Source: Roseimicrobium sp. ORNL1
GTDB taxonomy: Bacteria > Verrucomicrobiota > Verrucomicrobiia > Verrucomicrobiales > Verrucomicrobiaceae
Length of the DNA stretch: 64,000 nucleotides
Reading direction: 5' to 3'
Assembly (NCBI RefSeq): GCF_011044495.1
Contig: NZ_CP049143.1
Coordinates: 1,736,001-1,800,000, forward strand
Shown: one piece after another, positions 13,321-40,048 of the stretch
How the letters are laid out: the number at the start of each line of letters is the position of its first letter
Numbering within the stretch: the stretch's first letter is position 1
Notes under the pieces: model-generated
What the model was told of the DNA's origin: nothing
Databases searched by the model: none
What the model saw: only the letters and a program-made list of their open reading frames with translations
Program-made: the position numbers and the translations under genes

Positions 13321-14313
13321 TTATTCGGAGCGGGTCTTGCTCTTGATGAGCTTCAGTACATTGCTGGCGGCGATGGCGTCATGGAGCACCATGAGGGTGC
13401 CGGGTGTCTGGGTGCCGGGCTTGGAGGGATCCTGATACACCGTCTGGATCTGGGAAACGTGACCGATGGCATTGCCGTGGGCATCCAGCACGGCAGAGCC
13501 GCTTGAGCCAGGAGCCCATGAGGTGCTCACCTGAATCCAAACCGGATCATTCTCGGGATTGGCACTGACAGGTTCGGGAGGCGGTGGTGGCGTGCCCTTG
13601 GTGGGGGCCGGCTTTTGTGTTGGTGCAGGTGTGTCCGGTGCTGCGACGCGCATGTTGCTGCGGAAGGGATGCCTGGTGAATCGATTAACGATGCCCTCAC
13701 TGAAGTAGCCGCGTCTCCCTTTGGGTTCGCTGAAACAGTAGACCCTGTCACCCGGCATCACATCGGAGGTGAAGGAAAGGGGACTGAGCGTGGCGCCTTT
13801 GACTCGGATGATGGCCGTGTCCGTGGCCCGGTTAGCCGCCAGCACTTCCACCACCGGGATCACCTGGTCGTCTTCATCTGCGACGATGAGGTAACCCTCC
13901 CGGATATTTTCATTCTCCAGTACGTGACCGCAGGTCACCACGGCATCGTTGGTGATGGCGTAGCCGCCCGCGAGATTGAGATGCCAGTTGTTGCACTTCT
14001 TGCAGAGGTAGTGCCAGCCCACGCGGAGGTGGGCACGTCGCGCGGCATTCCACAATTCACGGCCCTCCAGCTTCTGGGTGCGTGGCTTGGGCAGATCGAG
14101 CTCGCAGGTGGTGCGGCTCATCTGTTCCACGATTTTCTCCATGGGGACGAGTTCGCCGCGCACCTTGAGGCGATTTGCCTCATCGGTGATCACCATCTGG
14201 GACTTGGGATTGCGTGTTTCCGGATAGATGGGCACCTCGGGAGCCTGACTGTGCAGGGAACTGCACATCAGCAATGTGCCCAGGACAGAGGCAAGAGGAG
14301 GAAGAGCGTTCAT
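13321..14313 (-). CDS. Secreted trypsin-like serine protease with Cys-pair insert
   Basis: 330 aa with an N-terminal signal peptide (about 1-22). The trypsin-fold catalytic triad is visible: His130 in VTCGHV, Asp165 in ATDTAII, and Ser271 in APGSSGSAVLD. Before the His there is a C-KK-C pair (104-107) followed by NNWHLN, which could bind zinc or form a disulfide. A Pro-rich stretch (about 224-250) interrupts the second barrel. There is no PDZ domain, unlike DegP. It lies just downstream of the VHL-metalloprotease gene on the same strand, 57 bp apart, so a two-gene secreted protease operon is likely. Confidence 0.8.
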   Translation of the reverse strand: MNALPPLASVLGTLLMCSSLHSQAPEVPIYPETRNPKSQMVITDEANRLKVRGELVPMEKIVEQMSRTTCELDLPKPRTQKLEGRELWNAARRAHLRVGWHYLCKKCNNWHLNLAGGYAITNDAVVTCGHVLENENIREGYLIVADEDDQVIPVVEVLAANRATDTAIIRVKGATLSPLSFTSDVMPGDRVYCFSEPKGRRGYFSEGIVNRFTRHPFRSNMRVAAPDTPAPTQKPAPTKGTPPPPPEPVSANPENDPVWIQVSTSWAPGSSGSAVLDAHGNAIGHVSQIQTVYQDPSKPGTQTPGTLMVLHDAIAASNVLKLIKSKTRSE

Positions 14314-14370
14314 GGCTTGCCGCTCAGTACGGCCGCTTTGGCGGCATATTGCGAACGGCTGCCTGTCTAT

Positions 14371-26631: not shown

Positions 26632-27339
26632 ATGCCTTCAGCACGTATGATTGCCGCAGTAGAATCGTCCCTGTCGCGTCACCCGGTGCATCTGGGTGCC
26701 TATTTTGCCGGACTTTCCTCCGGCACCCTCACGCGGGAGCAATTCATTTGCTCCCAACGGCAGTTCTATTTTGCCGTCCGCTTCTTTTCACGCCCCATGG
26801 CGGCTCTCATGGCCCGCCTGCCGGACTCTGCCTCCCGGCAATCCCTGATGCACAATCTGGCGGAGGAGCACGGCTATGTGGAGACACGAGGGGACTTCCG
26901 GCCCTCCATGGCGCATGATCATACCTTCCTCGCCTTTCTGAAATCACTCGGGGAGGACGCTGGTGACATGCGGGGCGAGAGCGAAGGACCTGCCGTGATG
27001 GCCTTCAACTTCGCGCTCATGGGAGTCTGCAGTTCGGGAGAGGTGGAGACAGCCTTCGCCTGCCTGGGCATCATCGAGTACACCTTTGCCGATCTCTCGG
27101 CGATCATCGGCAGCTCGGTGGTGGAGTCTGGTTGGGTACCCCGGGACCGGCTCGTGCATTACGCACTGCATGCGGAGATCGACAAGGAACACGCCGCGGG
27201 CTTCTTTCGCATGGTGGAGCCTGCGTGGAACGCGGGCGGCATGGCACGCCGCCGGGTGGAGCAGGGACTGGTGCTGGGATTGCACATCTTCCACCAGCTG
27301 TATGAGGACCTGGCACTGCTGCATCGCGGGAAGGCATGA
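26632..27339 (+). CDS. Haem-oxygenase-like diiron oxidase (PqqC/CADD-like)
   Basis: 235 aa from ATG 26632, picked for the GGAG five bases upstream; earlier in-frame Met codons lack this. The all-helical haem-oxygenase-like fold is indicated by the NLAEEHGY helix (residues 75-82), Glu149 in IIEYTF, and the C-terminal HAEIDKEH where His180, Asp184 and His187 have the 4-and-3 spacing of metal ligands in HDO enzymes such as chlamydial CADD. Family members include PqqC, TenA-like proteins, UndA, BesC and the N-oxygenases of diazeniumdiolate pathways, so the reaction cannot be named. Its stop overlaps the desaturase start (ATGA). It leads a six-gene operon. Confidence 0.8.
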   Translation: MPSARMIAAVESSLSRHPVHLGAYFAGLSSGTLTREQFICSQRQFYFAVRFFSRPMAALMARLPDSASRQSLMHNLAEEHGYVETRGDFRPSMAHDHTFLAFLKSLGEDAGDMRGESEGPAVMAFNFALMGVCSSGEVETAFACLGIIEYTFADLSAIIGSSVVESGWVPRDRLVHYALHAEIDKEHAAGFFRMVEPAWNAGGMARRRVEQGLVLGLHIFHQLYEDLALLHRGKA

Positions 27340-28283
27340 CCATGAACCCTGCTGGCGCCAAACCCAAACTGGAACCCGGCCTGCTGCGCGCCCTGCACGT
27401 GGTCGAGTCCGGGGCGCACTGGTCCCGCATCGGGTCGTTTGTGTTGCTCTATCTCTTCGGAGCTGCCGCGGCGGTCTTCGTGGCGCAGGAGTGGCATTGG
27501 GCCGCAGCGCTGCCGTTCTGCCTGCTGGCGGGCGCGTCGCTGCATGGCATCAGCCTCTTCACGCATGAAGCAGTGCATGGCACGCTGAGCCGGTATCCGC
27601 TCTGGAATGGTGTACTGGGCGCGCTGTGTGCCATGCCCGTGCTGCAGAACTTTTCCGCGTATCGCGTGCTGCACCTGCGTCATCACAAGCATCTGGGAAA
27701 TGAAGGTGACCCGGACCACTATGAAAACTACACGCGCTGGACATGGCTGGTGTTTTCCATGAACTGGCTGCGCTTGCTCGTGGGCTACCCGGTGTACATC
27801 GCTGCCATTCCCATCCTGGGTCTCAAACAGGGGACCTGGAGGGATCGCGGATTGATTAGTTTGGAACTGGCGGCTCTGGGCGTGATGATCGTGCTGGTCT
27901 GGTCACTGCATCTTCCGGGTGCCTGGCTTTGGTACGGGTGGGTGGTGCCGATGCTCTTCATCAATACCATGGTCAATATCCGTGGCATGAGCCAGCACAC
28001 GCTTTTGGAGGAGGCGGATGATGAGGTCCGAGGCACACGCACGATTTTGACACAGCCGCTCGTGCGCTACTTCATGTGCAATGAGAACTACCACCTCGAG
28101 CATCATTTGTATCCCGGGGTGCCGTGGCATCACCTGCCGCGCGTGCATGCGGCGCTGGAGCCTGAGCTGCGCAGGCAGGGCGCTTCGTACATCCCGTCCT
28201 ATGCCTCGTTTGTGGGTGAGTTTGTGCAAGGCAGCTTGAAGAGGAGTCCGTGGGGATGGAAGCGTAGGCATCGAGAATCGTGA
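27336..28283 (+). CDS. Membrane fatty acid desaturase / hydroxylase family protein
   Basis: 315 aa with four or more membrane segments. The three His clusters of the membrane diiron desaturases are present: HEAVH (about 80-84), HLRHHKH (about 110-116) and NYHLEHHLYP (about 248-257). Such enzymes insert a double bond or hydroxyl into acyl chains, sphingoid bases or related lipids, using ferredoxin or cytochrome b5 electrons. It overlaps the genes on both sides by 4 bp, so it belongs to the operon. The substrate is unknown; a lipid acyl chain made or attached by the neighbouring genes is the obvious guess. Confidence 0.9.
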   Translation: MTMNPAGAKPKLEPGLLRALHVVESGAHWSRIGSFVLLYLFGAAAAVFVAQEWHWAAALPFCLLAGASLHGISLFTHEAVHGTLSRYPLWNGVLGALCAMPVLQNFSAYRVLHLRHHKHLGNEGDPDHYENYTRWTWLVFSMNWLRLLVGYPVYIAAIPILGLKQGTWRDRGLISLELAALGVMIVLVWSLHLPGAWLWYGWVVPMLFINTMVNIRGMSQHTLLEEADDEVRGTRTILTQPLVRYFMCNENYHLEHHLYPGVPWHHLPRVHAALEPELRRQGASYIPSYASFVGEFVQGSLKRSPWGWKRRHRES

Positions 28284-29149
28284 GCAGGGTTTTCTTCACA
28301 TCGCGAATCCAGGTGCATGAAGCGCTCTTCCTCGCGCTGGGCAGTGTGCTTGCCCTCGTGCTGATGGTGTGTCACGGCGTGGCGCGGGAAGCCACGCTGG
28401 GTGTCGCCGCCTCCACGGTGGGCTATGCCGGAGTGCTGTTCCTTTCCCGGAAGGGAAGCCGCGTGCGCCTGCTGGCCAGCGCTGCGGTCACCTGGCTGTT
28501 GTACGTGGGCAGTTCGAGCCTCATCGAAGCGCTGCAATTGCCACTGCACAGTGCGCAGATTCTGTCGTGGGACACGTGGCTGCTGGGTGCCACACCTGCG
28601 GTGGCGTGGGAGGGAACCTTGTTCCCGTGGATGGTGGAGGTGCTCAGCGTGGCTTACTTGAGTTACCAGGTGTATGTTCACTGGGCTTTCCTTTCCGCGT
28701 GGTGTCTCTCCACGGAGTTGCGTCGAGAGTTCATGCGGTGGGTGTTCACGACGTTCATCGTAGGGTTCACTGTCTATTTCCTCTTTCCCGCCGCAACACC
28801 GGCCGCGGCATTTCCAGAACTCTTTGCGGCTCCCGTGCAAGGAGGCGTCGTCACCAGCTTCAATGAAATGCTGAACGCTCGCATCGCCGCGCGGTATGAT
28901 GCGTTTCCCAGCATGCATGTGCTCGCGACCATGACTCTGCTGGCGTGGGATTTTCAGAATCATCGCGTGAGATTTTGGATCATGCTGTTGCCTGCCCTGC
29001 TCATGGCGGTGGGGACCTTGTATCTGCGACTGCATTACTTCACGGATCTCGTTGCGAGTGTCGCGCTCTTTGCCGTGCTGCAATCGTGCTTCCGCTTGCG
29101 AACCGCCCTTCAAACCACGCCCACCCATGCCGCCTCTTCCGCCACCTGA
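28280..29149 (+). CDS. PAP2-superfamily membrane phosphatase
   Basis: 289 aa, GTG start overlapping the desaturase stop (GTGA). Polytopic membrane protein with the PAP2 catalytic motifs: ARYDAFPSMHV (Ser-x-x-His) and LYLRLHYFTDLVAS (His nucleophile plus Asp). The pattern resembles inositol-phosphorylceramide-synthase-like and phosphatidate phosphatases. In this operon it could release diacylglycerol from phosphatidic acid for the downstream BtaA-like enzyme (inference). It overlaps that gene by 23 bp. Confidence 0.85.
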   Translation: MSRVFFTSRIQVHEALFLALGSVLALVLMVCHGVAREATLGVAASTVGYAGVLFLSRKGSRVRLLASAAVTWLLYVGSSSLIEALQLPLHSAQILSWDTWLLGATPAVAWEGTLFPWMVEVLSVAYLSYQVYVHWAFLSAWCLSTELRREFMRWVFTTFIVGFTVYFLFPAATPAAAFPELFAAPVQGGVVTSFNEMLNARIAARYDAFPSMHVLATMTLLAWDFQNHRVRFWIMLLPALLMAVGTLYLRLHYFTDLVASVALFAVLQSCFRLRTALQTTPTHAASSAT

Positions 29150-30230
29150 CGCCTGGGCTCGTGAAGCAGCGAAGCTGCCCCTGGCCTTTGCGCAGGTGCG
29201 TGAAGACCCGCGACTGGACCTTGAACTCGCCTCCGTGCTGCCCTATGAGGGCACGGTGGTGATGGTGGCCTCCGGAGGGGACACGGCTGTGTGCCTGAGC
29301 TGGGTGCCGCTGGAGCGTTTGCTGCTGGTGGATATGAATCCCGCGCAGCTGGAACTCGCACGGCTCAAATGGCATCTGGCCCAGACGCTCAAATCTTCTG
29401 AGGTGAAGCGTCTGCTGGGGCATCTCCCCATGCCTGGTGAGAAGCGGCGGCAGGTATTGCAGCTCTGCTTTGAGAAACTGCACGTGTCCCAGGATGCGCT
29501 CGGCCCGTTGGAGATGGTGGCTGCGCTGGGCCCGGACCACGCAGGCCGTTACGAGGTCACGTTTGCGCAACTGCGGCAGGCACTCGGAGGGAGAGGCGAG
29601 CATGTCATACGGGCGCTGCAGTCCGGAGATGCATCCCAGGCTGCGGCACTGCTGGCACCGGGAACTCCGGACGGCGATGCGCTGGACGAGGCGCTGGCCT
29701 CTGTGATGTCGCTCGCCAATCTCGTGTGTCTCTTTGGCGAGAGCGCCACGCAGAACCCGCGCCTCCCATTCCATCGTCACTTTGCGGAGCGGATTCGTGA
29801 TGCCGTGGTGCGACCCGAGGCTGGGGCCAATCCCTTCCTCTGGCAGATGCTGGCCGGCCGCTTTCCTGATGTGGTGTCCTATGACTGGATACAAAACTGT
29901 CATGGTCAACTCACCGCGCGGACCAAGCCGGAGTATGAGCACGGCCACATGAAGGAGGTGCTGGAATCGTTGGACGCGGGAAGTGTGGACCTCGTGCACC
30001 TCTCGAATATCCTCGACTGGCTTTCTGAAGAAGATGCAACGGCCACGCTGGAAGCTGCGCGTCGGGTCTTGAAGACGGGTGGCAGGGTGATTCTCCGCCA
30101 GCTCAATTCCACCTTGGACATACCTGCTCTCGACAGCGGACTGGCGTGGGACGCCGAACTCGGCAGGGCGCTGCGGGAGCGTGATCGCAGCTTCTTCTAT
30201 CCGCACATTCACGTGGGCACGCGCTTGTAG
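29127..30230 (+). CDS. BtaA-like (DUF3419) aminocarboxypropyl transferase
   Basis: 367 aa from ATG 29127, inside the end of the PAP2 gene; the frame is open 25 codons further upstream. It matches the BtaA family of SAM-dependent 3-amino-3-carboxypropyl transferases: LAFAQVREDPRLDLELA (BtaA: Y-P-Q-x-x-E-D-P-x-x-D), VVMVASGGDTA, LLLVDMNPAQLELARLK, and later NPFLWQMLAGRFP and HLSNILDWLSEE. BtaA moves the four-carbon amino acid part of SAM to diacylglycerol, the first step to betaine lipids. The Asn/Cys usually after SGG is Asp here. No BtaB methyltransferase is nearby, so the product may differ from a betaine lipid. Confidence 0.75.
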   Translation: MPPLPPPDAWAREAAKLPLAFAQVREDPRLDLELASVLPYEGTVVMVASGGDTAVCLSWVPLERLLLVDMNPAQLELARLKWHLAQTLKSSEVKRLLGHLPMPGEKRRQVLQLCFEKLHVSQDALGPLEMVAALGPDHAGRYEVTFAQLRQALGGRGEHVIRALQSGDASQAAALLAPGTPDGDALDEALASVMSLANLVCLFGESATQNPRLPFHRHFAERIRDAVVRPEAGANPFLWQMLAGRFPDVVSYDWIQNCHGQLTARTKPEYEHGHMKEVLESLDAGSVDLVHLSNILDWLSEEDATATLEAARRVLKTGGRVILRQLNSTLDIPALDSGLAWDAELGRALRERDRSFFYPHIHVGTRL

Positions 30231-30260
30231 ATCGCGGCCGCTTTATCATTCAACAAACAC

Positions 30261-31223
30261 ATGAATCTTCACCGGCTGGAAACATCGCCCCCTGAGTGGC
30301 TGGGCATTGCGCTGGAGGAATTTGAGCGGGAATTCCGCTATCCCTTGGGCGAGCGTGCATCCTTTCACGTCGTGCACGGCAGGCAGTATGTGGCCTTCTT
30401 CCAAGCGATGGGTGAGGCGATGGTCTTCGTCGTGGAGCGAGAGGGACGGGTGCTGGGCACGGTGGCGGTGATTCGGCGTCGACTGCGCAGCCCCAAGGGG
30501 AAAAAGACGCCGGTGTACTACGTCTGCGATCTCAAAGTCACGCGCGGCCGCGCGGGTGGGCCTGTATTGGCCAGGCTGATGCATGCCGTGCGCGACCACA
30601 TACTCCGCACCGGCCTGGCTCCGGTGTATGGTATTGTCATGGATGGCACGGCACGGCTCCCCACGCAGTACACCGGCCGTGTGGATATCCCGCCATTCGA
30701 GCCGATGGCACAACTTGCGGTGCTGAGAATTTCCACGGAGGTGAATGATTCCTGGGCAGAGGCTTGTGAAAGTGCCTCCCGCGACAGGGTGGATCATTTG
30801 CGTGAGTACTTGAACCTTGGAGCGTGGTCCTCCTCGGCTTGCTCAAGCGAGCTGCGCTCCGAAATGACCGCCCTCCCGCTGATGAGCCAGTGCGCCGATG
30901 GTTGCGGCGTATTGGAGGACACGCGGCTCGGCAAACGTCTCATGATGCATGACGGCACGGAGATGAAGGCCGCCCATCTCTCGTGGTTGGGCTGTGGCAA
31001 GCCCATTGCCGCCATGGCGGTCATCCAGTCCGCGCGTGCCATCGCGCGGCAGCAGGGATTTCCCTCGCTGTTTGTGTCCCTGCCCAACACAGAATCGTTT
31101 GCAGGGCTCATTCGCTCACTGGTGCGGAGGCACGGAGCGCTGCTCGCTCCCGCCACGGTGTACGGCACCGGCTTTCCCGTGAAGGATGGTGCGGAGTGGT
31201 GGGTGAATACCTCGGAGATTTGA
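30261..31223 (+). CDS. GNAT-like acyltransferase
   Basis: 320 aa. Residues 40-150 look like a GNAT domain: AMVFVVEREGRVLGTVAVIR (strand pair) and VYYVCDLKVTRGRAGGPVLA, whose R-G-R-A-G-G loop suits acetyl-CoA binding. The second half may be another, degenerate GNAT-like unit. It lies 30 bp after the BtaA-like gene and is likely co-transcribed. The acceptor could be the amino lipid headgroup, but nothing proves it. Confidence 0.65.
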   Translation: MNLHRLETSPPEWLGIALEEFEREFRYPLGERASFHVVHGRQYVAFFQAMGEAMVFVVEREGRVLGTVAVIRRRLRSPKGKKTPVYYVCDLKVTRGRAGGPVLARLMHAVRDHILRTGLAPVYGIVMDGTARLPTQYTGRVDIPPFEPMAQLAVLRISTEVNDSWAEACESASRDRVDHLREYLNLGAWSSSACSSELRSEMTALPLMSQCADGCGVLEDTRLGKRLMMHDGTEMKAAHLSWLGCGKPIAAMAVIQSARAIARQQGFPSLFVSLPNTESFAGLIRSLVRRHGALLAPATVYGTGFPVKDGAEWWVNTSEI

Positions 31224-31271
31224 TGCGTGAAGAAGGCGACATCTCCATCGGTCCATGAAGCGAATGAGTCA

Positions 31272-31505
31272 ATGAGGACAATGGCGACCATGAACACCAA
31301 CGAAGGGAATCCCAGCAACGCGAACACGAGCGCGGCCATCCACCTTTGCGATCTGTGCGGCAAGCCCGGCGCCACGCTGCTCGGGGGTCGGTTGATTTGC
31401 AGTGCCTGTTATGAAGTCAGCGGCTCCTGCTGCGCGGAGTTTCTGGAAGTGGATGAGGATGCTGAACGCATCAAGCGCATCGCGCGTGAGGTGGCGAAGG
31501 GCTGA
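31272..31505 (+). CDS. Small zinc-ribbon-like protein
   Basis: 77 aa from ATG 31272; GTG 31227 or later Met codons (31281, 31290) are also possible. Cys pairs CDLCGK and CSACYE, 20 residues apart, form a likely zinc ribbon, followed by an acidic/basic helix (DEDAERIKRIAREVAKG). It could be a regulator or adaptor. It is the last gene of the operon. The following 31506-31643 holds no gene. Confidence 0.55.
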   Translation: MRTMATMNTNEGNPSNANTSAAIHLCDLCGKPGATLLGGRLICSACYEVSGSCCAEFLEVDEDAERIKRIAREVAKG

Positions 31506-31643
31506 CGCTCGGGCTGAGTTGCGAGGCTGCTGCGTGCAAAGTAGCTTCGAATTCAGTCGAATGATTTGCTCTGCGCGCCTGTGCACCTCATATGCCCATA
31601 CGGCTGAAGCCGTAGCTAATTTGTTGGGGCTGCGCCGCGCGAC

Positions 31644-32330
31644 CTACGAAACCGTGGCAAGCTTGCTGCGCCTGCCTTCCTTCCAATGCGTGAAGGGCGG
31701 GAACAGCGCACAGATGTGTACCTCTTCATCCGCATCCACCACAGAGCCGGGTGAAAGCAGGGCATAGCCACCAATGCGACAGCGGTCTCCGATTTCAATG
31801 GGGCCGACGTGGAGCACGGACTGGCCTTCCGCATCCTTGCTCACCACGTGGGCGCACAGCCTCGCGCCGGCGCCGAGCACGACGTCATTTCCAATCCGCA
31901 GCAGCGAACGATCCAGGACCCGCACACCGGGTGCCCAGTAGGTGAGGCGGCCAACCTTGGAACCCCATAGCCGGAGCCAGAGGGAGTACAAGCCAGGCAC
32001 GAAGCGCAGAAGTTCCTCAAGAAATGGCAGCCGTGAAAAAATCACCTGCGGCTGGGAACTGGCCCACCAAATCAAGAAGGCGCGAGAGCCAGGCGGGTGC
32101 GTGCCGTGCACGAGTGGGAAGGCCAGCAGCAGCACGCGCAGCAGCAACGGGGGCACCAGATAAAGACAGGCCACCGCACCCCACCAGGCCACCGCACAGC
32201 CAATCCAAAGCGTCAATGCAGCATGTGCCAGCGGCACGAGGTTGAGCAGGAGCATCACCAGACGCGTACTCACGGGCCACGGCGATGATACGCTTACCTG
32301 AGAGGCGATGGAATGTTCAGACGGTTCCAC
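31644..32330 (-). CDS. Membrane-anchored left-handed beta-helix acyltransferase-like protein
   Basis: 228 aa. Two or three hydrophobic segments (about 22-80) precede a hexapeptide-repeat region (about 125-205) with stretches such as VRVLDRSLLRIGNDVVLGAG and IEIGDRCRIGGYALLSPGSV, the left-handed beta-helix of O- and N-acyltransferases. The catalytic His of this fold may be in ARLCAHVVSK. It starts three bases after the stop of the AurF-like gene and faces the six-gene operon tail to tail. Confidence 0.65.
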   Translation of the reverse strand: MEPSEHSIASQVSVSSPWPVSTRLVMLLLNLVPLAHAALTLWIGCAVAWWGAVACLYLVPPLLLRVLLLAFPLVHGTHPPGSRAFLIWWASSQPQVIFSRLPFLEELLRFVPGLYSLWLRLWGSKVGRLTYWAPGVRVLDRSLLRIGNDVVLGAGARLCAHVVSKDAEGQSVLHVGPIEIGDRCRIGGYALLSPGSVVDADEEVHICALFPPFTHWKEGRRSKLATVS

Positions 32331-32333
32331 GAG

Positions 32334-33236
32334 TCACTCGGTAAAGAAATCTTCCAGCCCTTCAAGTTCCGGCCAGCGCGCGGCAAGGTGGCGTGTCTTG
32401 GGGAAGCTCACCTTGGGGTAGAGCGTGTGCAGGTAGACCTTGTTGGATTCGAGCGCATGCATGGCGTTATGGATTTCCCCGCGGCGAGGCATCAACTCGG
32501 GGAACTCGTGCAGCCACGTGTCGATCACGCGAAGTCCGGAGCGTTTGGGGAGCAGGAAGAACTCGCGCAGCGACCAGAGCAGCGCGTGCGCATTCATCCG
32601 GCGAAGCCAGAGCGGCGTGGCGGGCCACAGCCATTCGAGGAAAAGTACATCACGCCGGATGTGTGCCGGTTCCTCCAGGAGATGCTCGCGATGCACCGCT
32701 TGAAAGCGCGGGTCCATGGCGCTGCCGCAGGAGACAAAGGCCCGGCCAAAGTACAGAGCGCGCTCTTCGAATATCAATTGCAGCCAGAGCATCGCCGGGA
32801 AGAACCGTACGCTGCTGCCCGCCATCCTCATGAGCCTGCGTGTGGTGTTGCCCATGTCGAGCAGGTGGAAGTCGCCATGCTGGTACTGCGCGGGCGCTTC
32901 CTCACGCAGCAGGCCGCGGAACCACGAGGAGTGCGCATCCTCTTCCGCGAGGAATTGTGCGGCCTCGTTTCGCAGTTCCGGCGTCGCGGCGCGGCGTACG
33001 AGCCACTCCAGCGTGGGGCGCGCCATGACTTGCTCGAAGAAGATGATCTGTTCGAGGAAGTAGAGACCGTGCACTCGGTTGTAACCCAGGCGCTGCTGGT
33101 TGGTGAGGGTGTGATACACTGGTGTGAACGCGAGCGGGGTCAGGGACTCGGGAGAGAAGAGCGTGCCCTCGTGCGGGAAGCCGCGGTTTCCTTCCCCGGT
33201 ATGCGGTGAGGGCTTGAGACGTCGGGCATCAGACAT
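32334..33236 (-). CDS. AurF-like diiron oxygenase
   Basis: 300 aa from ATG 33236 (MSDARRLKPS), as the upstream frame is Arg/Pro-rich and unlike the family. All likely iron ligands of the AurF class can be placed: Glu62 (EQII) for helix 1, Glu99 and His102 in EEDAH, Glu157 in IFEERALYF, and His185, Glu189, His192 in HLLEEPAH, with the same 4-and-3 spacing as AurF's last three ligands. AurF turns p-aminobenzoate into p-nitrobenzoate; relatives (MgoC, PvfB) N-oxygenate amino groups on carrier proteins. The substrate is unknown, but the neighbours suggest an amine in a lipid or carrier-bound intermediate. Confidence 0.8.
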   Translation of the reverse strand: MSDARRLKPSPHTGEGNRGFPHEGTLFSPESLTPLAFTPVYHTLTNQQRLGYNRVHGLYFLEQIIFFEQVMARPTLEWLVRRAATPELRNEAAQFLAEEDAHSSWFRGLLREEAPAQYQHGDFHLLDMGNTTRRLMRMAGSSVRFFPAMLWLQLIFEERALYFGRAFVSCGSAMDPRFQAVHREHLLEEPAHIRRDVLFLEWLWPATPLWLRRMNAHALLWSLREFFLLPKRSGLRVIDTWLHEFPELMPRRGEIHNAMHALESNKVYLHTLYPKVSFPKTRHLAARWPELEGLEDFFTE

Positions 33237-33438
33237 GGGTCGAGGCGAGGCGGTAAGGTGGTGTGATGGTTGCGAGCGAGGCCGGAGCCTGTCTGTCCAT
33301 GGGTGGCACATTCTCCACGATGCAGGATATTGAAAAAGAAGGTGGCGCTATTGAGCAACTCAATATCGACAGGGGGTGCAAAATAATGGCAGGATGGCGG
33401 CGCTTGCTCCCGTCGTCGAGAGCGAAGGAAACGCCCGT

Positions 33439-34115
33439 GGCCCGAAGGGTCACACGAGTACAGCCCAGGGATGAGGGAGCCTCGGCGACCGATTCCCTGG
33501 GTTTGTCGCAAAAATGAATTGCGCCCTGAAGGGGCGCTCGAACATTCAACTATGCCCCAGTCTCTTGCCCAACTCTATGTGCACCTCATCTTCTCCACGA
33601 AGAACCGCGAACGCTGGCTCGTCCCAGATCTCCATCCAGAAATGCATGCCTACATGGGAGGCATTCTCAATCGTCACGATTGCATGCCGGTGGAAATCAA
33701 TTCCGAGCCCGACCACGTGCATGTCTTGTTCCGACTGGGCAGGACCGCCGCCGTGAGCGATGTCGTGGCCCATGTGAAAAAAGGCACCAGCGACTGGCTG
33801 CGTGCGCGCAGCCGGGAGTTTGCGGGATTTTATTGGCAAGGAGGCTATGGAGCCTTCTCAGTGTCGCAGTCGGGCGTGGATGAAGTGCGCACCTACATCC
33901 GCGAGCAGCAAGAGCATCATCGACGCCGAACCTTTCAGGAGGAGTTTCTGGAATTCCTTCGCCGCTATGAAGTGGACTATGATGAGCGCTACCTTTGGGA
34001 TTGATTCCGCTGCTCGTGCGACCTTTCAGGTCGCGATCTTCCGAGGGTATATACCCAGGGAATCGGTCGCCGGAGCTCCCTCATCCCTGGGCTGGAGTCG
34101 TGCGACCCTTCGGGC
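33439..34115. mobile_element. RAYT transposase element flanked by REP-type inverted repeats
   Basis: A transposase gene (33552-34004) lies between a 63-bp left repeat (33439-33501, starting GGCCCGAAGGGTCACACG) and a 62-bp inverted right repeat (34054-34115, ending GACCCTTCGGGCC). Each arm itself folds (CCCAGGGAT ... ATTCCCTGGG), the usual REP hairpin. Smaller hairpins, GCGCCC-TGAAG-GGGCGC (33521-33537) and GCGACCT-TTC-AGGTCGC (34018-34034), sit just inside. REP-associated tyrosine transposases are normally single-copy chromosomal genes of this form. It covers most of the gap between the AurF-like gene and the P450 gene; 33237-33438 shows nothing else. Confidence 0.85.
33552..34004 (+). CDS. 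REP-associated tyrosine transposase (Y1/IS200-like)
   Basis: 150 aa from ATG 33552 (MPQSLAQLYVHLIFSTKNRE). The HUH metal motif is DHVHVLF; the catalytic Tyr lies in VRTYIREQQEHHRRRTFQEE, as in Y1 transposases. The strand order and length fit IS200/RAYT proteins that nick single-stranded DNA at REP hairpins. Nearby inverted REP arms support the RAYT reading over a mobile IS200. Confidence 0.9.
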   Translation: MPQSLAQLYVHLIFSTKNRERWLVPDLHPEMHAYMGGILNRHDCMPVEINSEPDHVHVLFRLGRTAAVSDVVAHVKKGTSDWLRARSREFAGFYWQGGYGAFSVSQSGVDEVRTYIREQQEHHRRRTFQEEFLEFLRRYEVDYDERYLWD

Positions 34116-34135
34116 CGCGATGTGGCGAAGGCTGC

Positions 34136-34327
34136 GATGACGGTCGCATCCTCATCCTCTCGGATGGTGTCTGGAAGTACTGCGGCTTCGAGGCCATCAA
34201 GGCCGCGTTTGAGATGTCTTCTTTCGTGGACGCAGCATCGTTCTTGAGGGCCGCTACACAAAAGCGTGCGGGCTCGGGCCTGCCGGATGATTTCAGTGTG
34301 ATCGCGGTGGAGTTGGCAGGCATCTAG
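34136..34327 (+). pseudogene. C-terminal fragment of a PP2C-type protein phosphatase
   Basis: A 63-codon open stretch ending in TAG at 34327 reads like the last part of a PP2C phosphatase: DDGRILILSDGVWKYCGFEA holds the SDG-x-W-K-Y motif around a metal Asp, and GLPDDFSVIAVEL holds the DD-x-S end. The N-terminal two-thirds are absent: the sequence switches to the RAYT right repeat 20 bases before the fragment. No matching N-terminal part is seen left of the element. The following 34328-34538 is empty of genes. Confidence 0.65.
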
Positions 34328-34538
34328 CTCCTCGCCCTTTTGGACTAACCGTTTAGCGGGATGTTCTTCCCGCTCGCGCCAAAGCCCGGGTTGCGCCAGG
34401 AATTCCTGTATCGATGATCGGTGGTACTCTGGATGCAATTTGCACGGTTGTTTTAGAGGTGATTGTTCGAAATTCACGTTGAAACGCCGCACTGCCCATT
34501 CTACATGCCCATGCCCCCCGGCATTCCGAAATCGCTAT

Positions 34539-35930
34539 ATGTCGCTGAAGAGCGAAGTGTTATCTAATCATCTTGAGAATACGACGGCCGTGGGCACCTC
34601 TGGGGGGAGCGTTCACGGTGGGTCTCCTTATGATTTCCTTCTGGAGATGATGCGTGATCGGGCGGGCTGGGTGAAGTATGACAGCTCTTATGGGGAGGTG
34701 TATTTCTTTGGGCATCCCGATTATGTGCAGTCCGTCGTGCATAATGCTGGCTTCGTGAGAACGTCGCTGGGCAAACTGCTTCTGGGAAACAGCCTTCTCA
34801 CCAGCGATGGCCATGAGTGGAGGGCGAAGCGGCAACTCCTGCAGCCGCATTTCCACGAGCGATGCATGGCCGCGCATGATGCGCTGATCACGGGCCGCAC
34901 CATGGACATGCTCCGCCGGTGGGAACCGATAGCGGATGGACACACCCTGGTGGATCTCAGTGCCGAGACCGAGTGTGTCACGCTGGAGATTCTGATGAAG
35001 GCACTCTTCGGAGGAATTCCCGCCGGGGATGCTGCGAAGCTGGCCGCAGCCGTGCGGATGCTGATGCAGGAACTCGGGGACCTTTCGGACGCGCTTTTCA
35101 TGACCAGGCCCGTGGTGGACTCCGCGCGAAACGCACGTTTCCGCAAGGCCCTGCAACTGGTGGATGGCATGGTGGCAGATATCATCGCGCGCTGGGAAAA
35201 CATGGAGCACCGCGAGTGCGGCATGATGGCGTCCCTGCTGGCGGTGCGTGATGACGAGGGAAACCAAGTCGCCGCAAAGCAGGTGCGCGATGAGGTCGTC
35301 ACCATGATCATGGCCGGGCAGGAATCCGCCGTGTCCCTCTTATGGACGACGCATCTGGTAGCCAAGCATCCCGAAGTGGAGCAGCGTCTGCTGGAGGAAA
35401 TGGATGCGGTGCTGGGTGAGCGCATCCCCACCGTCGCGGATTTCCCCAAGCTGGAGTACACGCGCATGGTGGTGGATGAAGCGCTGCGCCTCTACCCGCC
35501 TGTGAGCGTGGTGGTGAGGCAGGCGGCCACGGACCTGATGGTGCATGATGTGCACGTGCCGGCGAAGAGCCTGGTGGTGGTGAGTCCCTATGCCACCCAC
35601 CGTCATCCGGACTTCTGGGAAGAACCGGAGCGGTTCCATCCCGAGCGTTTCCAGGCGGGGCGCATGGAGGGCTTGCATCGTTATGCCTATTTCCCCTTCT
35701 TTGGTGGGCGTCATCGCTGCATCGGCCAGCCGCTCGCCTTGATAGAAGGGCCCCTGATGCGGGTGCTGATGACACGGCACTACCGCATTTGTCCCTTGCC
35801 CGACCACGATTACCAGCCCCTGCCCGGCATGGTCATGCGCTTGCGCGGGGGCTATCCCGCACACCTGGAGCTGCGACGCTCCGTACCGCGCGCGGAGCCA
35901 GCATCCTGTCCATTTGAGAAGCGAGCATGA
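34539..35930 (+). CDS. Cytochrome P450
   Basis: 463 aa from ATG 34539 (MSLKSEVLSN). Family hallmarks: the I-helix oxygen motif MAGQESAVSLLW, the K-helix E-x-x-R in VDEALRLYPP, the PERF segment RFHPERF, and the haem-binding FFGGRHRCIGQPLA with the Cys ligand. There is no membrane anchor or fused reductase. The sequence type is near bacterial fatty-acid or long-chain P450s (CYP102/CYP110-like), by pattern only. It overlaps the acyl-AMP ligase start (ATGA), so the acyl chain activated there is a likely substrate. Confidence 0.92.
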   Translation: MSLKSEVLSNHLENTTAVGTSGGSVHGGSPYDFLLEMMRDRAGWVKYDSSYGEVYFFGHPDYVQSVVHNAGFVRTSLGKLLLGNSLLTSDGHEWRAKRQLLQPHFHERCMAAHDALITGRTMDMLRRWEPIADGHTLVDLSAETECVTLEILMKALFGGIPAGDAAKLAAAVRMLMQELGDLSDALFMTRPVVDSARNARFRKALQLVDGMVADIIARWENMEHRECGMMASLLAVRDDEGNQVAAKQVRDEVVTMIMAGQESAVSLLWTTHLVAKHPEVEQRLLEEMDAVLGERIPTVADFPKLEYTRMVVDEALRLYPPVSVVVRQAATDLMVHDVHVPAKSLVVVSPYATHRHPDFWEEPERFHPERFQAGRMEGLHRYAYFPFFGGRHRCIGQPLALIEGPLMRVLMTRHYRICPLPDHDYQPLPGMVMRLRGGYPAHLELRRSVPRAEPASCPFEKRA

Positions 35931-37735
35931 CGGAGACTTCCATGATGACGCACACACCGGCATCGCCGCTGAAGGACATGTCCATTGGCGATGCCACAAC
36001 GTTGGTGGATCTCCTGCGTCATCGAGCTGCGCAGCATGGTGACAAGCGGGCGCTGACATTCCTGCCCGATGGGGAGAAGGTCGGCGAAAGCCTGACTTAT
36101 GCGGAACTGGATGCGCGTGCCCGTGCCATCGCTGCCTCCCTTCAGGCGCAGGGGATGCACGGAGGGCGGGTGCTGTTGATCTTCCATTCCGGACTCGAGT
36201 TTGCTTGTGCCCTGCTCGGTTGCATGTATGCGGGTGCGATCGCGGTTCCCATCTATCCGCCAAAGGCAAATCGCAATGTGCTGCGTCTACGCAGTGTGTA
36301 TCAGGATGCGACACCCGCACTGGCCCTCACTACGGCCGCCATCCAGCAGCGCACGCGACCGCTTCTTGAGGAGTGCGGGTTGGATTCCCTGCGCATGGAA
36401 GCGGTGGAGGGATGGTGGCAAAGCCATGCAGATGCCTGGTTCCGTCCGGATATCGATGGCGAGACGCTGGCCTTCCTGCAATACACCTCCGGCTCCACTT
36501 CGAATCCGAAGGGCGTGATGCTGAGCCACGCGAACCTGCTGGCCAACCATCGCATGATGCAGGAGGCATTTGGCCATACCCACGAGTGCCGCATCCTCAC
36601 CTGGCTGCCACTGTTTCATGACATGGGGTTGATTGGGAATATGCTCCAGTCCCTGTATCTCGGTGGGGAGTGCATCATCATGCCGCCCGAGGCGTTTTTC
36701 ATGAAGCCACTGCGCTGGCTTGCGGCGATTTCCGCGCATCGCGCCACTCGCAGTGGCGCGCCGAATTTCGCCTACGATCTCTGTGTGCGGAAGATAAAGC
36801 CGGAGCAGTGTCGCGCCCTGGACTTGAGCTGCTGGGTGACGGCGGATGTGGCCGCGGAGCCGGTGCGGCACGGCACGCTGGAGCGTTTCGCAGAAACGTT
36901 TGCGGGTGTTGGGTTCAGCGACACGGCGTTCAATCCGGCCTATGGGCTCGCGGAGGCATCGGTCTTTGTCTCCGCACGTGACAAGGGTCGCGGCTTTCGT
37001 GGCACGGCATTCAAGACCGCAGCACTCGCGTGCGGTCGTGTGGAACCTGCCGAGACCGGCGCAGACAGTGATGCGCGCATCTATGTGGGATGCGGGCACA
37101 CGTGGCAGGCGCAGGAGATGGCCATCGTGCATCCTCAATCTGGCGTGCGATGTGCGGAGGGTGAAGTGGGGGAGGTGTGGCTCTCGGGTCCGCATGTGGC
37201 GCGTGGCTATTGGAACCGCGTGGAGGAATCCGAGCGCACCTTTGGCGCGCGCATCGCAGGTGAGGAATCATCCATCGCCACACGTTATCTGCGCACCGGA
37301 GACCTCGGCTTCTTTTATCAAGGCGACCTCCACCTCGCCGGACGCATCAAGGACATCATCATCGTGGCCGGAAGGAATCACGACCCCGCAGACATCGAGC
37401 TGACTGTCGGTGGTTGTCATCCCGCGATTCGCATGGGTGGTTGCGCCGCCTTTCAGGTGGAGACGGAGGAGGAGAGCCGGGTGGTCATCGCCGTCGAGCT
37501 GGAGCGCACCTCAGGCATCCTCGGCGATGCCGCGCCTGAGGATGAGAACTCCACCTCCGCCGTGATGCTCGCGATTCGCAAGTGCGTGGCGGACCACCAT
37601 GACCTCGCGCCCCACGACGTGACCCTTCTCAAACCCGCCGCCCTGCCGAAGACCTCGAGCGGTAAGATTCAACGCCACGCCTGCAGAGCGGCCTGGCAGT
37701 CAGGAAGCATGAACGCATGGCAGTGGACGAGGTAA
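35927..37735 (+). CDS. Fatty-acyl-AMP ligase (FAAL-type adenylating enzyme)
   Basis: 602 aa. ANL-superfamily motifs: YTSGSTSNPKGVMLSH (P-loop), FHDMGLIGNML, PAYGLAEASVF, LRTGDLGFFYQGDLHLAGRI, and the C-terminal lysine in LPKTSSGKIQRHACR. The segment after the FHDMGL motif and the general length fit FAALs, which make acyl-adenylates and load them onto acyl carrier proteins rather than CoA. The next gene overlaps by 19 bp and starts with such a carrier. One oddity: the usual NGAEP motif reads ADVAAEP here. Confidence 0.9.
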   Translation: MTETSMMTHTPASPLKDMSIGDATTLVDLLRHRAAQHGDKRALTFLPDGEKVGESLTYAELDARARAIAASLQAQGMHGGRVLLIFHSGLEFACALLGCMYAGAIAVPIYPPKANRNVLRLRSVYQDATPALALTTAAIQQRTRPLLEECGLDSLRMEAVEGWWQSHADAWFRPDIDGETLAFLQYTSGSTSNPKGVMLSHANLLANHRMMQEAFGHTHECRILTWLPLFHDMGLIGNMLQSLYLGGECIIMPPEAFFMKPLRWLAAISAHRATRSGAPNFAYDLCVRKIKPEQCRALDLSCWVTADVAAEPVRHGTLERFAETFAGVGFSDTAFNPAYGLAEASVFVSARDKGRGFRGTAFKTAALACGRVEPAETGADSDARIYVGCGHTWQAQEMAIVHPQSGVRCAEGEVGEVWLSGPHVARGYWNRVEESERTFGARIAGEESSIATRYLRTGDLGFFYQGDLHLAGRIKDIIIVAGRNHDPADIELTVGGCHPAIRMGGCAAFQVETEEESRVVIAVELERTSGILGDAAPEDENSTSAVMLAIRKCVADHHDLAPHDVTLLKPAALPKTSSGKIQRHACRAAWQSGSMNAWQWTR

Positions 37736-39336
37736 GCGCAGGAGTGATCCGGGATTGGCTGGTGAGATATGCCGCCAAGGAAATGAGCCTTCCGCCGGAG
37801 AGGATTGATCCGCATGCTCCCATCACAAGCCTGGGGCTGGACTCGCTGACATTGATCATGCTCACCGGAGATCTCGCGGAGTGGATGAATCAGGACCTTC
37901 CTGCCTCCCTCCTGCATGACCACTCCACCATGGATTCACTGGCGAGGAGTCTGGCGGAGGAGGAGCCGGATAATTTCACGGACAAGCTGCCCGAGCTATC
38001 ACGCAGCGAGCCGCTGCCGGTGAGCTTCTCCCAGGAGCGCCTGCTCAGGTTCGCCGAGCTGGGTGATGCGGGAGATGGCAATCTCGTGGTTGAGCGGTTC
38101 GCCATTCGTGGTGCAGTGGATGTGGAGGCATTGCAGGGCGCGTTCAGCGACGTGATCCAGCGCCACGAGATATTGCGCACGACTTTCCAGAAGCACGGCG
38201 ATGGATTCACCCAACGGGTGCACGACCAGGCGCATCCGGGAGTGTTTGAGATACTCGACTACACCGGGGATGAGGATGGCGCGTTTGCCAGGACCACTCA
38301 GGAGAGTTCGCGCCCCATGCCGTTGCAGACCGGTCCGTTGATGCGTGTGGTTCTCTTCAAGCTCGCGGAGCAGCACCACGGCATCAACTTGATTTTCCAT
38401 CACCTGCTCATGGATGCCGGTGCGCTGAATGTGCTGCACGCCGAGTTGAAGCACTTCTATGAGCAGCGTCGCACGGGAGCTCTGTCACCGCTGCCGGCGT
38501 TGAAGCTGCAGGTCGCGGACTTCGCTGCCTGGGAGCGCCAGTGGCTGTCCAAAGAAGGCGCCCCTCACCAGACGCGGCTGGCATGGTGGCGGGACTATTG
38601 GAAAGGGGAGATTCCTTTGCCAGCGGATGTACCGATGCGGCATCATGAAGCGCCGGAGGTCACGCCGCCCGCGGCGTCCTGCCATGGCTGGCGGACTATT
38701 TCCCCGGACCTCGTGGAGGGTGTGCGCACCCTGGCCAGAGAGGAGAAGGCCACGCCCTTCATCGTATACTTTGCTGTCTTCACGATACTGCTCCATGCAC
38801 AAACTTATCAAGAGGAGTTCGTGCTCGGCTCCTACGTGTCCGACCGCAAGCGGGTGGCGGCGCAGAATCTCATTGGCATGTTCACCAGCATGGTGATGAC
38901 CAAGGTGCACTTGGTGGGAGCGCCAAGCTTCCGCGAATGGATCGCGCATGTGCGGCAGCAGCACGAGGAAGTCACGCGGCACCAGGAGTTACCGATTGAA
39001 GACCTGCACGACAGCCTGCGCGCGGAGGGCCTGCCGGTGCCCGGGGTGAATATCATCTTCCAGTACTTCGTGGACCCGGTCTCCACCTTCCTTCTGCCGG
39101 GAGTGGAGACCTCGCGGTGGCGCGAGATTTCGGAAAGCACCATGCCGTGGGGATTCCAGTTCCGGGTGATGGAGTGTTTCGGCGACCTGCTCGCGGCGGT
39201 GAGATTTGATGGCAATCTCTACCGCGAATCCGAGGTTCCTGCGTTCATGGAGACCTTTGAAAAACTGCTTCGCATATGCCTGGCTAATCCCGAGCGTTCC
39301 GTGCGTGATCTGGCGGGGGAGTTGGGGTGGTGGTAG
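37717..39336 (+). CDS. Acyl carrier protein fused to NRPS condensation domain
   Basis: 539 aa. Residues 1-90 are an acyl carrier domain with the phosphopantetheine site SLGLDSLTLIML (Ser at 48). Residues about 105-530 are a condensation domain with the catalytic HHLLMDA motif (His-His-x-x-x-Asp, final Ala where Gly is usual) and latching stretches such as LGSYVSDRKR. No adenylation or thioesterase domain follows. The simplest model is that the upstream FAAL loads a fatty acid on the carrier and the C domain passes it to a free amine or alcohol. The ATG at 37717 lies within the FAAL gene. Confidence 0.9.
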   Translation: MAVDEVSAGVIRDWLVRYAAKEMSLPPERIDPHAPITSLGLDSLTLIMLTGDLAEWMNQDLPASLLHDHSTMDSLARSLAEEEPDNFTDKLPELSRSEPLPVSFSQERLLRFAELGDAGDGNLVVERFAIRGAVDVEALQGAFSDVIQRHEILRTTFQKHGDGFTQRVHDQAHPGVFEILDYTGDEDGAFARTTQESSRPMPLQTGPLMRVVLFKLAEQHHGINLIFHHLLMDAGALNVLHAELKHFYEQRRTGALSPLPALKLQVADFAAWERQWLSKEGAPHQTRLAWWRDYWKGEIPLPADVPMRHHEAPEVTPPAASCHGWRTISPDLVEGVRTLAREEKATPFIVYFAVFTILLHAQTYQEEFVLGSYVSDRKRVAAQNLIGMFTSMVMTKVHLVGAPSFREWIAHVRQQHEEVTRHQELPIEDLHDSLRAEGLPVPGVNIIFQYFVDPVSTFLLPGVETSRWREISESTMPWGFQFRVMECFGDLLAAVRFDGNLYRESEVPAFMETFEKLLRICLANPERSVRDLAGELGWW

Positions 39337-39361
39337 GTGGAGAGCTCGGTGCAGTCAGAGT

Positions 39362-40048
39362 TCATTTGCCCGCCCATCGCCGGGCTTTCTGTCGCAGTCT
39401 CTGCAAGTGCACCGCGGGCTCTGCTGCGTCTCCATGATTCGGCAGGACTCCGTCGAGCTCAAGAGACAGCGCCTTCTGGACACTTGCTGGTATCAGCTCT
39501 GGACAAGAGTTGAGGATACGTGGCGGGAGGTGGGTGATGCCACGATAGCTGGCAAAGAGGTCGGCGGTGAAGAGAGCTCTGAGTTTTTCGCAATACCAGC
39601 CGGTGTGGCCATGGGTGTGCCCGGGCAGATGTATGGCGCGAAGTCCCTGCCAGATATCGAGGGTATCACCATCATCGATCCACCTGTCGGGAGTGAAAGG
39701 CTGGAAATGGAGCAGGGGACGTCCGATGGCTTCCAGAATGCCTGCTCCATGAGACCATTCCGTATACTTGGGTCTTCCCGCATAGTGGTCGGCATCCAGT
39801 CGAGGCGCTGCCACCCACGCGCTGGTTTCCTTCACCAGAGGAGCCACGTTGAGAATGTGGTCGAGGTGACCGTGCGTGAGGATGATGCCCTTGATGGGTT
39901 CCTTTTCCCAGCCATGCGAGCGCAGCGTGCGTTTCAGCAAAGTGATGCCGCCGATGAAGCCAGCATCCACGAGATAGAGTCCGGCCGCGTCGCGGAGGAC
40001 GTGGAAGTTGACTGCTGGCGCGCGGACGGTGAGGATCGATTCGTGCAA
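39362..40048 (-). CDS. Metallo-beta-lactamase-fold hydrolase
   Basis: 228 aa. The metal-binding motif is LTHGHLDHI, with further ligands in HLPGHTHGHTG, FTADLFAS and NHGD. This is the class B-type MBL fold used by glyoxalase II, lactonases and other hydrolases. It ends tail to tail with the carrier-condensation gene, only 25 bp apart. It might cleave a thioester or lactone of the neighbouring pathway, but that is a guess. Confidence 0.85.
   Translation of the reverse strand: MHESILTVRAPAVNFHVLRDAAGLYLVDAGFIGGITLLKRTLRSHGWEKEPIKGIILTHGHLDHILNVAPLVKETSAWVAAPRLDADHYAGRPKYTEWSHGAGILEAIGRPLLHFQPFTPDRWIDDGDTLDIWQGLRAIHLPGHTHGHTGWYCEKLRALFTADLFASYRGITHLPPRILNSCPELIPASVQKALSLELDGVLPNHGDAAEPAVHLQRLRQKARRWAGK

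Follow-up and report, generated by a model that had tools for sequence, protein, structure and literature searches.

The 64,000-nucleotide stretch of the Roseimicrobium sp. ORNL1 genome analyzed here (hereafter the window; the genome, designated G000, is 7.96 Mb in one contig) contains, between positions 26,632 and 39,336, a run of genes that a preliminary description had read as a possible single 13-kb cluster for an oxidised, extra-acylated amino lipid. All of the genes named in that description are present at the limits given below (Pfam matches and motifs); most of the identities score above Pfam cut-offs, while the GNAT, hexapeptide, zinc-ribbon and fatty-acyl-AMP ligase (FAAL) calls fall below theirs. 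Comparison with the corresponding loci of relatives shows, however, that the 13 kb are not one cluster but three separately conserved modules. The main subject of this report is the first of these, module 1, which consists of the following genes:

26632..27339, + strand: B, haem-oxygenase-like dimetal oxidase (HDO), core of module 1 (Pfam Haem_oxygenas_2, 1.7e-15)
27336..28283, + strand: C, FA_desaturase-family enzyme, optional in module 1 (Pfam, 4.2e-46)
28280..29149, + strand: D, PAP2_3 lipid phosphatase/phosphotransferase-like protein, optional in module 1 (Pfam PAP2_3, 4.1e-18)
29127..30230, + strand: E, DUF3419/BtaA-like protein, core of module 1 (Pfam DUF3419)
30261..31223, + strand: F, GNAT-like acyltransferase, core of module 1 (weak GNAT match, seen again in relatives)

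Adjacent gene ends overlap by 4 nt (B/C and C/D) or about 23 nt (D/E), and the matches to Haem_oxygenas_2 (57.7 bits), FA_desaturase (158), PAP2_3 (66) and DUF3419 (93) all exceed the Pfam cut-offs. B carries the HxxxDxxH motif of HDOs, and C the three histidine boxes HEAVH, HLRHH and HLEHH.

Conservation and distribution of module 1

The core of module 1 is formed by B, E and F, with C and D as optional partners. Clear orthologues of E are found in eight of 57 relatives (G000, the congener G001, G002, G012, G018, G027, G033 and G038; congener and phylum labels follow kinship labels and named near relatives), and seven further genomes of the 57 give weak DUF3419 matches only. B, C, E and F occur together in all eight genomes, and D occurs in four of them (G000, G001, G027 and G033), the other four being without it. 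The same association was seen in a single set of 337 genomes drawn evenly from the phylum, in which the best five to eight candidates per genome were scored at limits of 1e-20 for F and B and 1e-30 for E. F and B each match the identical five genomes (G000, G002, G159, G288 and G469), E matches seven genomes of which the strongest five are these same five, and B, E and F lie within 5 kb of each other in every one of them. The two remaining E matches (G239, 1e-36; G408, 7e-31) have no accompanying match to F or B and are outside the five-genome count. If the genomes are assumed to be independent, the chance of one gene pair choosing the same five is 2.8e-11; the five genomes are not fully independent, but they come from three families.

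An alignment of E alone, used with two peptide patterns to scan a collection of species genomes, yielded 42 loci, distributed over Verrucomicrobiota, Planctomycetota and two other phyla. This count leaves out divergent members, the mycobacterial one among them, because the scan relied on two peptide patterns. Named isolates in the set are Roseiconus nitratireducens JC645, Haloferula sp. BvORR071 and two Verrucomicrobium strains; the rest are mostly metagenome-assembled genomes (MAGs), whose labels may be wrong. Four loci (L048, L057, L066 and L073) are on the same contigs as G002, G027, G038 and G018, respectively. Based on profile searches of six-frame translations, F comes directly after E in 39 of the 40 loci that could be assessed (all but L080 and L088), and B is present in 34 of 37 (the assessable set excludes L068, L071, L072, L082 and L088, where a contig end falls where B could be). 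C is present in 28 of the 42 loci, a count that takes in fragments in L061 and L067 and a copy cut by the contig end in L082, and D in 15, plus remnants in L061, where C is likewise a remnant; D never occurs without C. At L069 (8071-10005), in a Planctomycetota MAG, C and D are fused into one 645-aa protein.

Gene order tracks lineage. The order B-C-(D)-E-F is found in most Verrucomicrobiota loci as well as in the planctomycete-labelled L053 and L062, and the orders (C)-(D)-E-F-B or E-F-B-C-D mainly in planctomycetes. A Sandaracinaceae MAG (L085) has B-E-F, and a gammaproteobacterial one (L083) has E-F-B, the frame of E being broken there. A plasmid of Mycobacterium riyadhense carries E-B-F with a gene for an MmpL-family resistance-nodulation-division (RND) transporter directly after it. 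Crude clustering of open reading frames (ORFs) revealed no further widely shared neighbor, the next family after E, F, C/D and B being present in seven loci; the ORF choice was rough and missed some of the B genes themselves.

Proteins of module 1 and their possible product

Judged by its sequence, B is a member of the HDO superfamily, combining fold family PF14518 with the three-histidine/three-carboxylate (3H/3C) ligand set. A profile of B matches the CADD/para-aminobenzoate (pABA) synthase structures 1rcw and 8va9 in the PDB (2.5e-12 to about 3e-12) and, more weakly, BesC (4-chloro-allylglycine synthase, 9e-4). In the alignment with 1rcw, CADD residues E81, H88, E142, H174, D178 and H181, which we take to be the metal ligands, correspond to E78, H95, E149, H180, D184 and H187 of B. 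These columns are nearly invariant in the B alignment, from which two of 37 rows were dropped (L053, partial, and L074, with unknown residues): E78 is E in 35 sequences and D in one, H95, E149, H180 and D184 are the same in 36 of 36, and H187 is kept in 35 of 36, with a single R. A self-sacrificing pABA synthase of the CADD type was considered for B and rejected, because the columns of CADD Y27 and K152, presumably the sacrificed tyrosine and its partner lysine, hold F25 and I159 in B (F in 29, L in five, V in one and A in one of 36 sequences at the first; I in 32 and L in four at the second); B also scores only 29.7 bits against TIGR04305, for which the cut-off is 200. HDO homologues about 44% identical to B also follow EF-hand protein genes on Streptomyces plasmids (L101, 11911-12621; L102, 11911-12609).

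All 40 of the E proteins aligned match DUF3419, and the motifs ASGG and DxNPAQ are conserved among them (the E alignments start at 29124, one codon before the ATG, and six of 45 loci, L077, L080, L081, L082, L083 and L088, were dropped for truncated, split or over-long frames). A Shinella DUF3419 protein (L100), whose gene has a methyltransferase gene after it, shares the ASGG and DxNPA motifs with E; from what is known of Rhizobiaceae, we take this pair to be btaA-btaB, which makes the betaine lipid diacylglyceryl-trimethylhomoserine (DGTS). Because of the DUF3419 match and the motifs in common with the Shinella protein, transfer of the 3-amino-3-carboxypropyl group of S-adenosylmethionine (SAM) is the likely reaction of E, which is thus probably a SAM-dependent 3-amino-3-carboxypropyl transferase. 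E alone has no match among PDB sequences at 0.01, and an E profile matches methyltransferases only, at 0.006 or weaker. In a tree of 41 E proteins and ten other DUF3419 proteins, 38 of the E rows group together (95/98).

Other DUF3419 genes were encountered along the way. The genome of the window has a second, very divergent one, accompanied by DoxX- and DUF2071-family genes (L098, 6851-9837; at about 934 kb of contig C1), and the same trio is present on a Streptomyces plasmid (L103, 9111-11172). In Roseinatronobacter (L104, 523-8507) a DUF3419 gene is found with UbiA, phosphoenolpyruvate (PEP)/pyruvate-binding and AMP-binding genes; two proteins of relatives (L026 and L027) group with L104, and a stretch 27% identical to the FAAL of the window lies about 3 kb away from them.

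The match of F to GNAT (20.6 bits) is under the cut-off of 25. Among 36 members of the F family, 13 match Acetyltransf_1 and 13 match Acetyltransf_9 at E values up to 0.01 (seven of 42 rows, cut by contig ends, were dropped from the F alignment). An aminolipid N-acyltransferase of the OlsB type was tried as an identity for F and set aside for want of a PF13444 match; the lack of this domain suggests that F may use short acyl-CoA. Searches of PDB sequences gave no match for F at 1 or for C at 0.01, and none of the core proteins B, E and F matched a membrane-protein family.

The domain content and recurrence of these genes leave, in our judgement, an even chance that B-C-D-E-F is a biosynthetic unit complete in itself and of patchy distribution, with an amino-headed lipid free of phosphorus as its product. 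In such a pathway, D would free a lipid alcohol (diacylglycerol) where the module has its own phosphatase, E would move the 3-amino-3-carboxypropyl group of SAM onto this alcohol to give a homoserine-ether lipid, as BtaA does, and F would acylate the amine. B would oxidise the amino-acid head, bound through its carboxylate in the manner known for amino or fatty acids in other HDOs, and C, where present, would desaturate or hydroxylate the lipid. We infer the lipid acceptor of E, the order in which F and B act, and the HDO reaction, which could be decarboxylation, C-C cleavage or desaturation; diacylglycerol is proposed as the acceptor because of the BtaA precedent and the PAP2 partner, and any single one of the HDO reactions on a lipid head group is, taken by itself, hardly likely to be the right one. 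Five 3H/3C HDOs solved with substrate bind it directly to the iron, according to parts of PMC13108848, and a homoserine head with a free carboxylate would fit such direct binding in B. The points that link the module to lipids are the DUF3419 match of every E protein aligned, the recurrent PAP2 and desaturase partners, the C-D fusion at L069 and the MmpL gene after E-B-F in M. riyadhense. More tentatively still, E-F-B might make a membrane lipid of a new class, in which a homoserine-ether lipid derived from SAM has its head rebuilt by an HDO. This would be the first case of an HDO acting on a membrane lipid, and the lipid would be scattered across Verrucomicrobiota and Planctomycetota, gammaproteobacterial and myxobacterial MAGs, and at least one mycobacterial plasmid, with MmpL as its exporter.

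Several observations weigh against a lipid product. C and D, the strongest lipid pointers, are optional partners, C being absent from 14 and D from 26 of the 42 loci, contig ends counted. L079, L086 and L087 have room for B yet lack it, and L079 also lacks F. HDOs 43-44% identical to B are present on six Streptomyces plasmids, none of which is matched in E and F searches of the same plasmid collection, and the two Streptomyces plasmid regions inspected contain no E or F genes. By both sequence and tree, E is only distantly related to the Shinella DUF3419 protein of the btaA-btaB-like pair. The three most distant loci, L085, L086 and L087, fall among the other DUF3419 proteins in the tree, for which there is a long-branch warning, so that the cassette-linked E genes may not all share one origin. 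Membership of the DUF3419 family alone is no proof of a lipid product, given the very different gene neighborhoods of its other members. Finally, PF13444 is unmatched in all 36 F members at E values up to 0.01.

The alternative that survives best is a small secondary metabolite, soluble or signal-like, as the product of module 1. In that case E would alkylate a non-lipid acceptor with the aminobutyryl group of SAM, B would rearrange the product in the way of known natural-product pathways with HDOs, and F would acetylate it, C and D being lipid-modifying genes only loosely attached. Such a product would agree with the description of HDOs, in parts of PMC13108848, as natural-product enzymes of which several act on amino acids, as well as with the lack of membrane-protein matches in the core, the lack of PF13444 in F, and the diverse clusters in which other DUF3419 proteins are found. 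We nevertheless regard it as rather unlikely, although a serious competitor, given that the core is repeatedly accompanied by PAP2 and desaturase genes in both Verrucomicrobiota and Planctomycetota, with a fusion of the two at one locus, and that in M. riyadhense the next gene after it encodes an MmpL-family RND transporter.

Modules 2 and 3 and the junction between them

The remainder of the 13 kb contains the following features:

31275..31505, + strand: G, small zinc-ribbon-like protein, genus accessory (two CxxC pairs in the translation)
31644..32330, - strand: H, hexapeptide (left-handed beta-helix) acyltransferase-like protein, module 2 (Hexapep, 1.5e-5, below cut-off)
32334..33236, - strand: I, AurF-like diiron oxygenase, module 2 (Pfam AurF, 1.1e-10)
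33471..34004, + strand: J, IS200-like Y1 transposase, junction element (Pfam Y1_Tnp, 2.2e-24)
34138..34327, + strand: 3' remnant of a PP2C-like phosphatase gene (alignment with G001, where the gene is longer)
34539..35930, + strand: K, cytochrome P450, module 3 (Pfam p450, 9.1e-61)
35927..37735, + strand: L, FAAL-like protein, module 3 (Pfam AMP-binding, 3.8e-66)
37717..39336, + strand: M, acyl carrier protein (ACP)-condensation didomain protein, module 3 (Pfam PP-binding and Condensation)

A gene for a protein of metallo-beta-lactamase fold (N) follows beyond this region. Above their Pfam cut-offs are AurF (42 bits), p450 (207), AMP-binding (224), PP-binding (43) and Condensation (198), and the catalytic motifs FFGGRHRCIG (P450), HHLLMD (condensation domain), GLDS (ACP) and two ExxH (AurF) are present. 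K/L overlap by 4 nt and L/M by 19 nt, and a gap of 3 nt separates I and H. The FAAL identity of L rests on NCBIfam FAAL models matched down to 3e-126, below the curated cut-offs (422 vs 775 bits). H scores 24.9 bits against Hexapep, below the cut-off, and also resembles the C-terminal part of Pls/PosA synthetases (1.8e-10, well under the cut-off for that family). G, of 76 aa, gives 18.7 bits to an FtrD-like family, also below cut-off; it is 80% identical over 69 aa to its counterpart in G001, and is unmatched in the other relatives' loci examined and in the 42 E loci.

Module 2 (I-H) is linked to B-F in this genus only and is a separate module. Among the 57 relatives, I is restricted to G000 and G001, and of the four genomes of the 337 in which it is matched at 1e-15, only G000 has module 1. 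In G241, G446 and G460, an AurF homologue occurs with a hexapeptide protein and a different desaturase (24-26% identical to C), with GH3-family genes within some 9 kb, and none of these three is among the genomes in which E is matched. Partial matches to H lie beside AurF homologues in L106, L107 and L108 (49-52% identity over 153-178 aa). The loci L110 (9857-12460), L111 (8092-11259, with PAP2_3) and L112 (8165-15279), of three other genomes of the phylum, have an AurF homologue, a distinct FA_desaturase and a hexapeptide protein near GH3-family genes. These loci may represent another amino-lipid pathway, since a GH3-like protein, OlsH, produces N-acyl ornithine in a planctomycete, as reported in parts of PMC12493201.

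K-L-M is a separate module as well, present in this genome but not at this site in the congener, where the corresponding stretch has the order glmS-B-C-D-E-F-G-H-I-N and J, K, L and M are missing. In a DNA alignment extending from the end of the PP2C-like remnant to N, about 5.1 kb of the window (34316 to 39393) stand against 35 bp of G001 (14309 to 14344), and this extra stretch is the P450-FAAL-ACP/C operon, which was either inserted in the window genome or lost in G001. Between I and N, G001 has a PP2C-like gene (222 aa; PP2C_2, 5.3e-5, 23.3 bits, just under the cut-off of 24). Most of this gene is gone from the window, and at its place are the transposase J and an inverted repeat, the 67-nt arms of which (33436-33502 and 34053-34119, 91% complementary) enclose J. 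The transposase and the remnant, both absent from the preliminary description, lie at the junction of the two halves of the cluster that it claimed.

Four more copies of K-L-M exist in the relatives: a second one in the window genome (L090) and one each in G001 (L091), G002 (L092) and G018 (L093). L090 and L091 share one setting and L092 and L093 another, and no module 1 genes are present at any of the four. Among 188 genomes of the class, M is matched at 1e-60 in G000 and G002 only. K-L-M is missing from four genomes that carry module 1 (G012, G027, G033 and G038), with G033 showing no more than a 24% match to the condensation domain, in a different cluster, and a search of the 42 E loci with genes G-P at 1e-3 returned a single match, 25% identical and FAAL-like (L049). 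L and M have the same domains in the same order as the FAAL-ACP-C lipopeptide loading at the start of non-ribosomal peptide synthetases (NCBIfam PRK05691, below cut-off), but K-L-M differs in being a free-standing three-gene operon with a P450, outside module 1. A conserved cluster with a family resemblance to these genes, and no closer relation, is found in three relatives (L113, 3155-11999; L114, 5563-18442; L115, 1133-14008) and encodes a polyketide synthase, a free-standing condensation-domain protein, a desaturase and a MacB-type ABC transporter.

These distributions bear directly on the possibility that the whole region works as one pathway, with FAAL-ACP-C and P450 adding an oxidised extra acyl chain to an amino lipid. 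The genes are physically adjacent in this genome, and each of the four relatives with K-L-M is one of the eight (of 57) that carry module 1, a possible sign of cooperation; because the four genomes represent only two genera of one family, shared ancestry may also explain this co-presence. We consider a joint pathway improbable, since the congener lacks K-L-M at the site, its four other copies are elsewhere without module 1 genes, the 42 E loci show just the one FAAL-like match, and module 1 is found in four genomes that lack K-L-M. The preliminary description had held that genes unlinked in relatives would speak against a common cluster: K-L-M and H-I do come apart from the rest, whereas B, E and F stay together in nearly all loci, with C and D as optional partners. 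The oxidised, possibly extra-acylated amino lipid is retained as the best reading of B-C-D-E-F, a module that recurs in several phyla.

Relation to known lipid pathways and implications

Module 1 resembles the BtaA/BtaB system in that E belongs to DUF3419 with the ASGG and DxNPA motifs and that PAP2 could supply the diacylglycerol acceptor. It differs in having no BtaB nearby, a near-constant GNAT and HDO instead, and an E protein far from that of Shinella. With the Shinella methyltransferase as the query, tblastn at 1e-4 found no match in 50 cassette loci (four genomes being included twice) or in the window, and the whole genome gave only weak, short or partial matches (5e-6 and 1e-5), so that trimethylation to DGTS is unlikely and DGTS synthesis by a BtaA/BtaB pair was rejected for lack of a nearby BtaB partner. 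That E might act with a distant methyltransferase to make an ordinary DGTS-type betaine lipid, F and B being hitch-hikers, agrees with its DUF3419 membership but is very improbable, as F and B go with E across several phyla and gene orders and no match to the Shinella BtaB-like protein lies near any cassette.

B shares its family and 3H/3C ligand set with UndA, BesC, SznF and CADD, as outlined in parts of PMC13108848. UndA uses free fatty acids, unlike the lipid head group proposed for B. The word "lipid" is absent from the main text of this HDO review, in which only about a dozen HDOs are given as functionally validated. The aminolipid pathways of OlsBA, OlsF, GlsB and the GH3-type OlsH and OlsI, as treated in parts of PMC11631085 and PMC12493201, similarly involve non-phosphorus lipids with amino-acid heads and N-acylation. 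The head proposed for module 1 would instead be assembled on a lipid alcohol with SAM as its source, and F lacks PF13444, which the aminolipid N-acyltransferases have in common according to the same portion of PMC11631085. No GH3- or PlsC-type recurring partner was seen among the shared neighbors of module 1 in the ORF clustering.

The enzyme families of module 1 are known, and their steady combination is undescribed as far as open-access searches go: no description of the DUF3419-HDO-GNAT set was found among the papers listed in full-text searches of that literature, a scope that leaves most subscription papers and bioRxiv outside, and the papers listed on the aminolipids or polar lipids of the named producers and on the M. 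riyadhense plasmid gave nothing on point. A compact three-gene core that persists in several phyla with changed gene order offers a clean target for expression. If the lipid reading of module 1 is true, BtaA-like chemistry would have a second branch, ending not in DGTS but in an oxidised, N-acylated head. The gene set would then also be a marker, shared by Planctomycetota, Verrucomicrobiota and a mycobacterial plasmid, of a lipid for which existing lipidomes could be searched.

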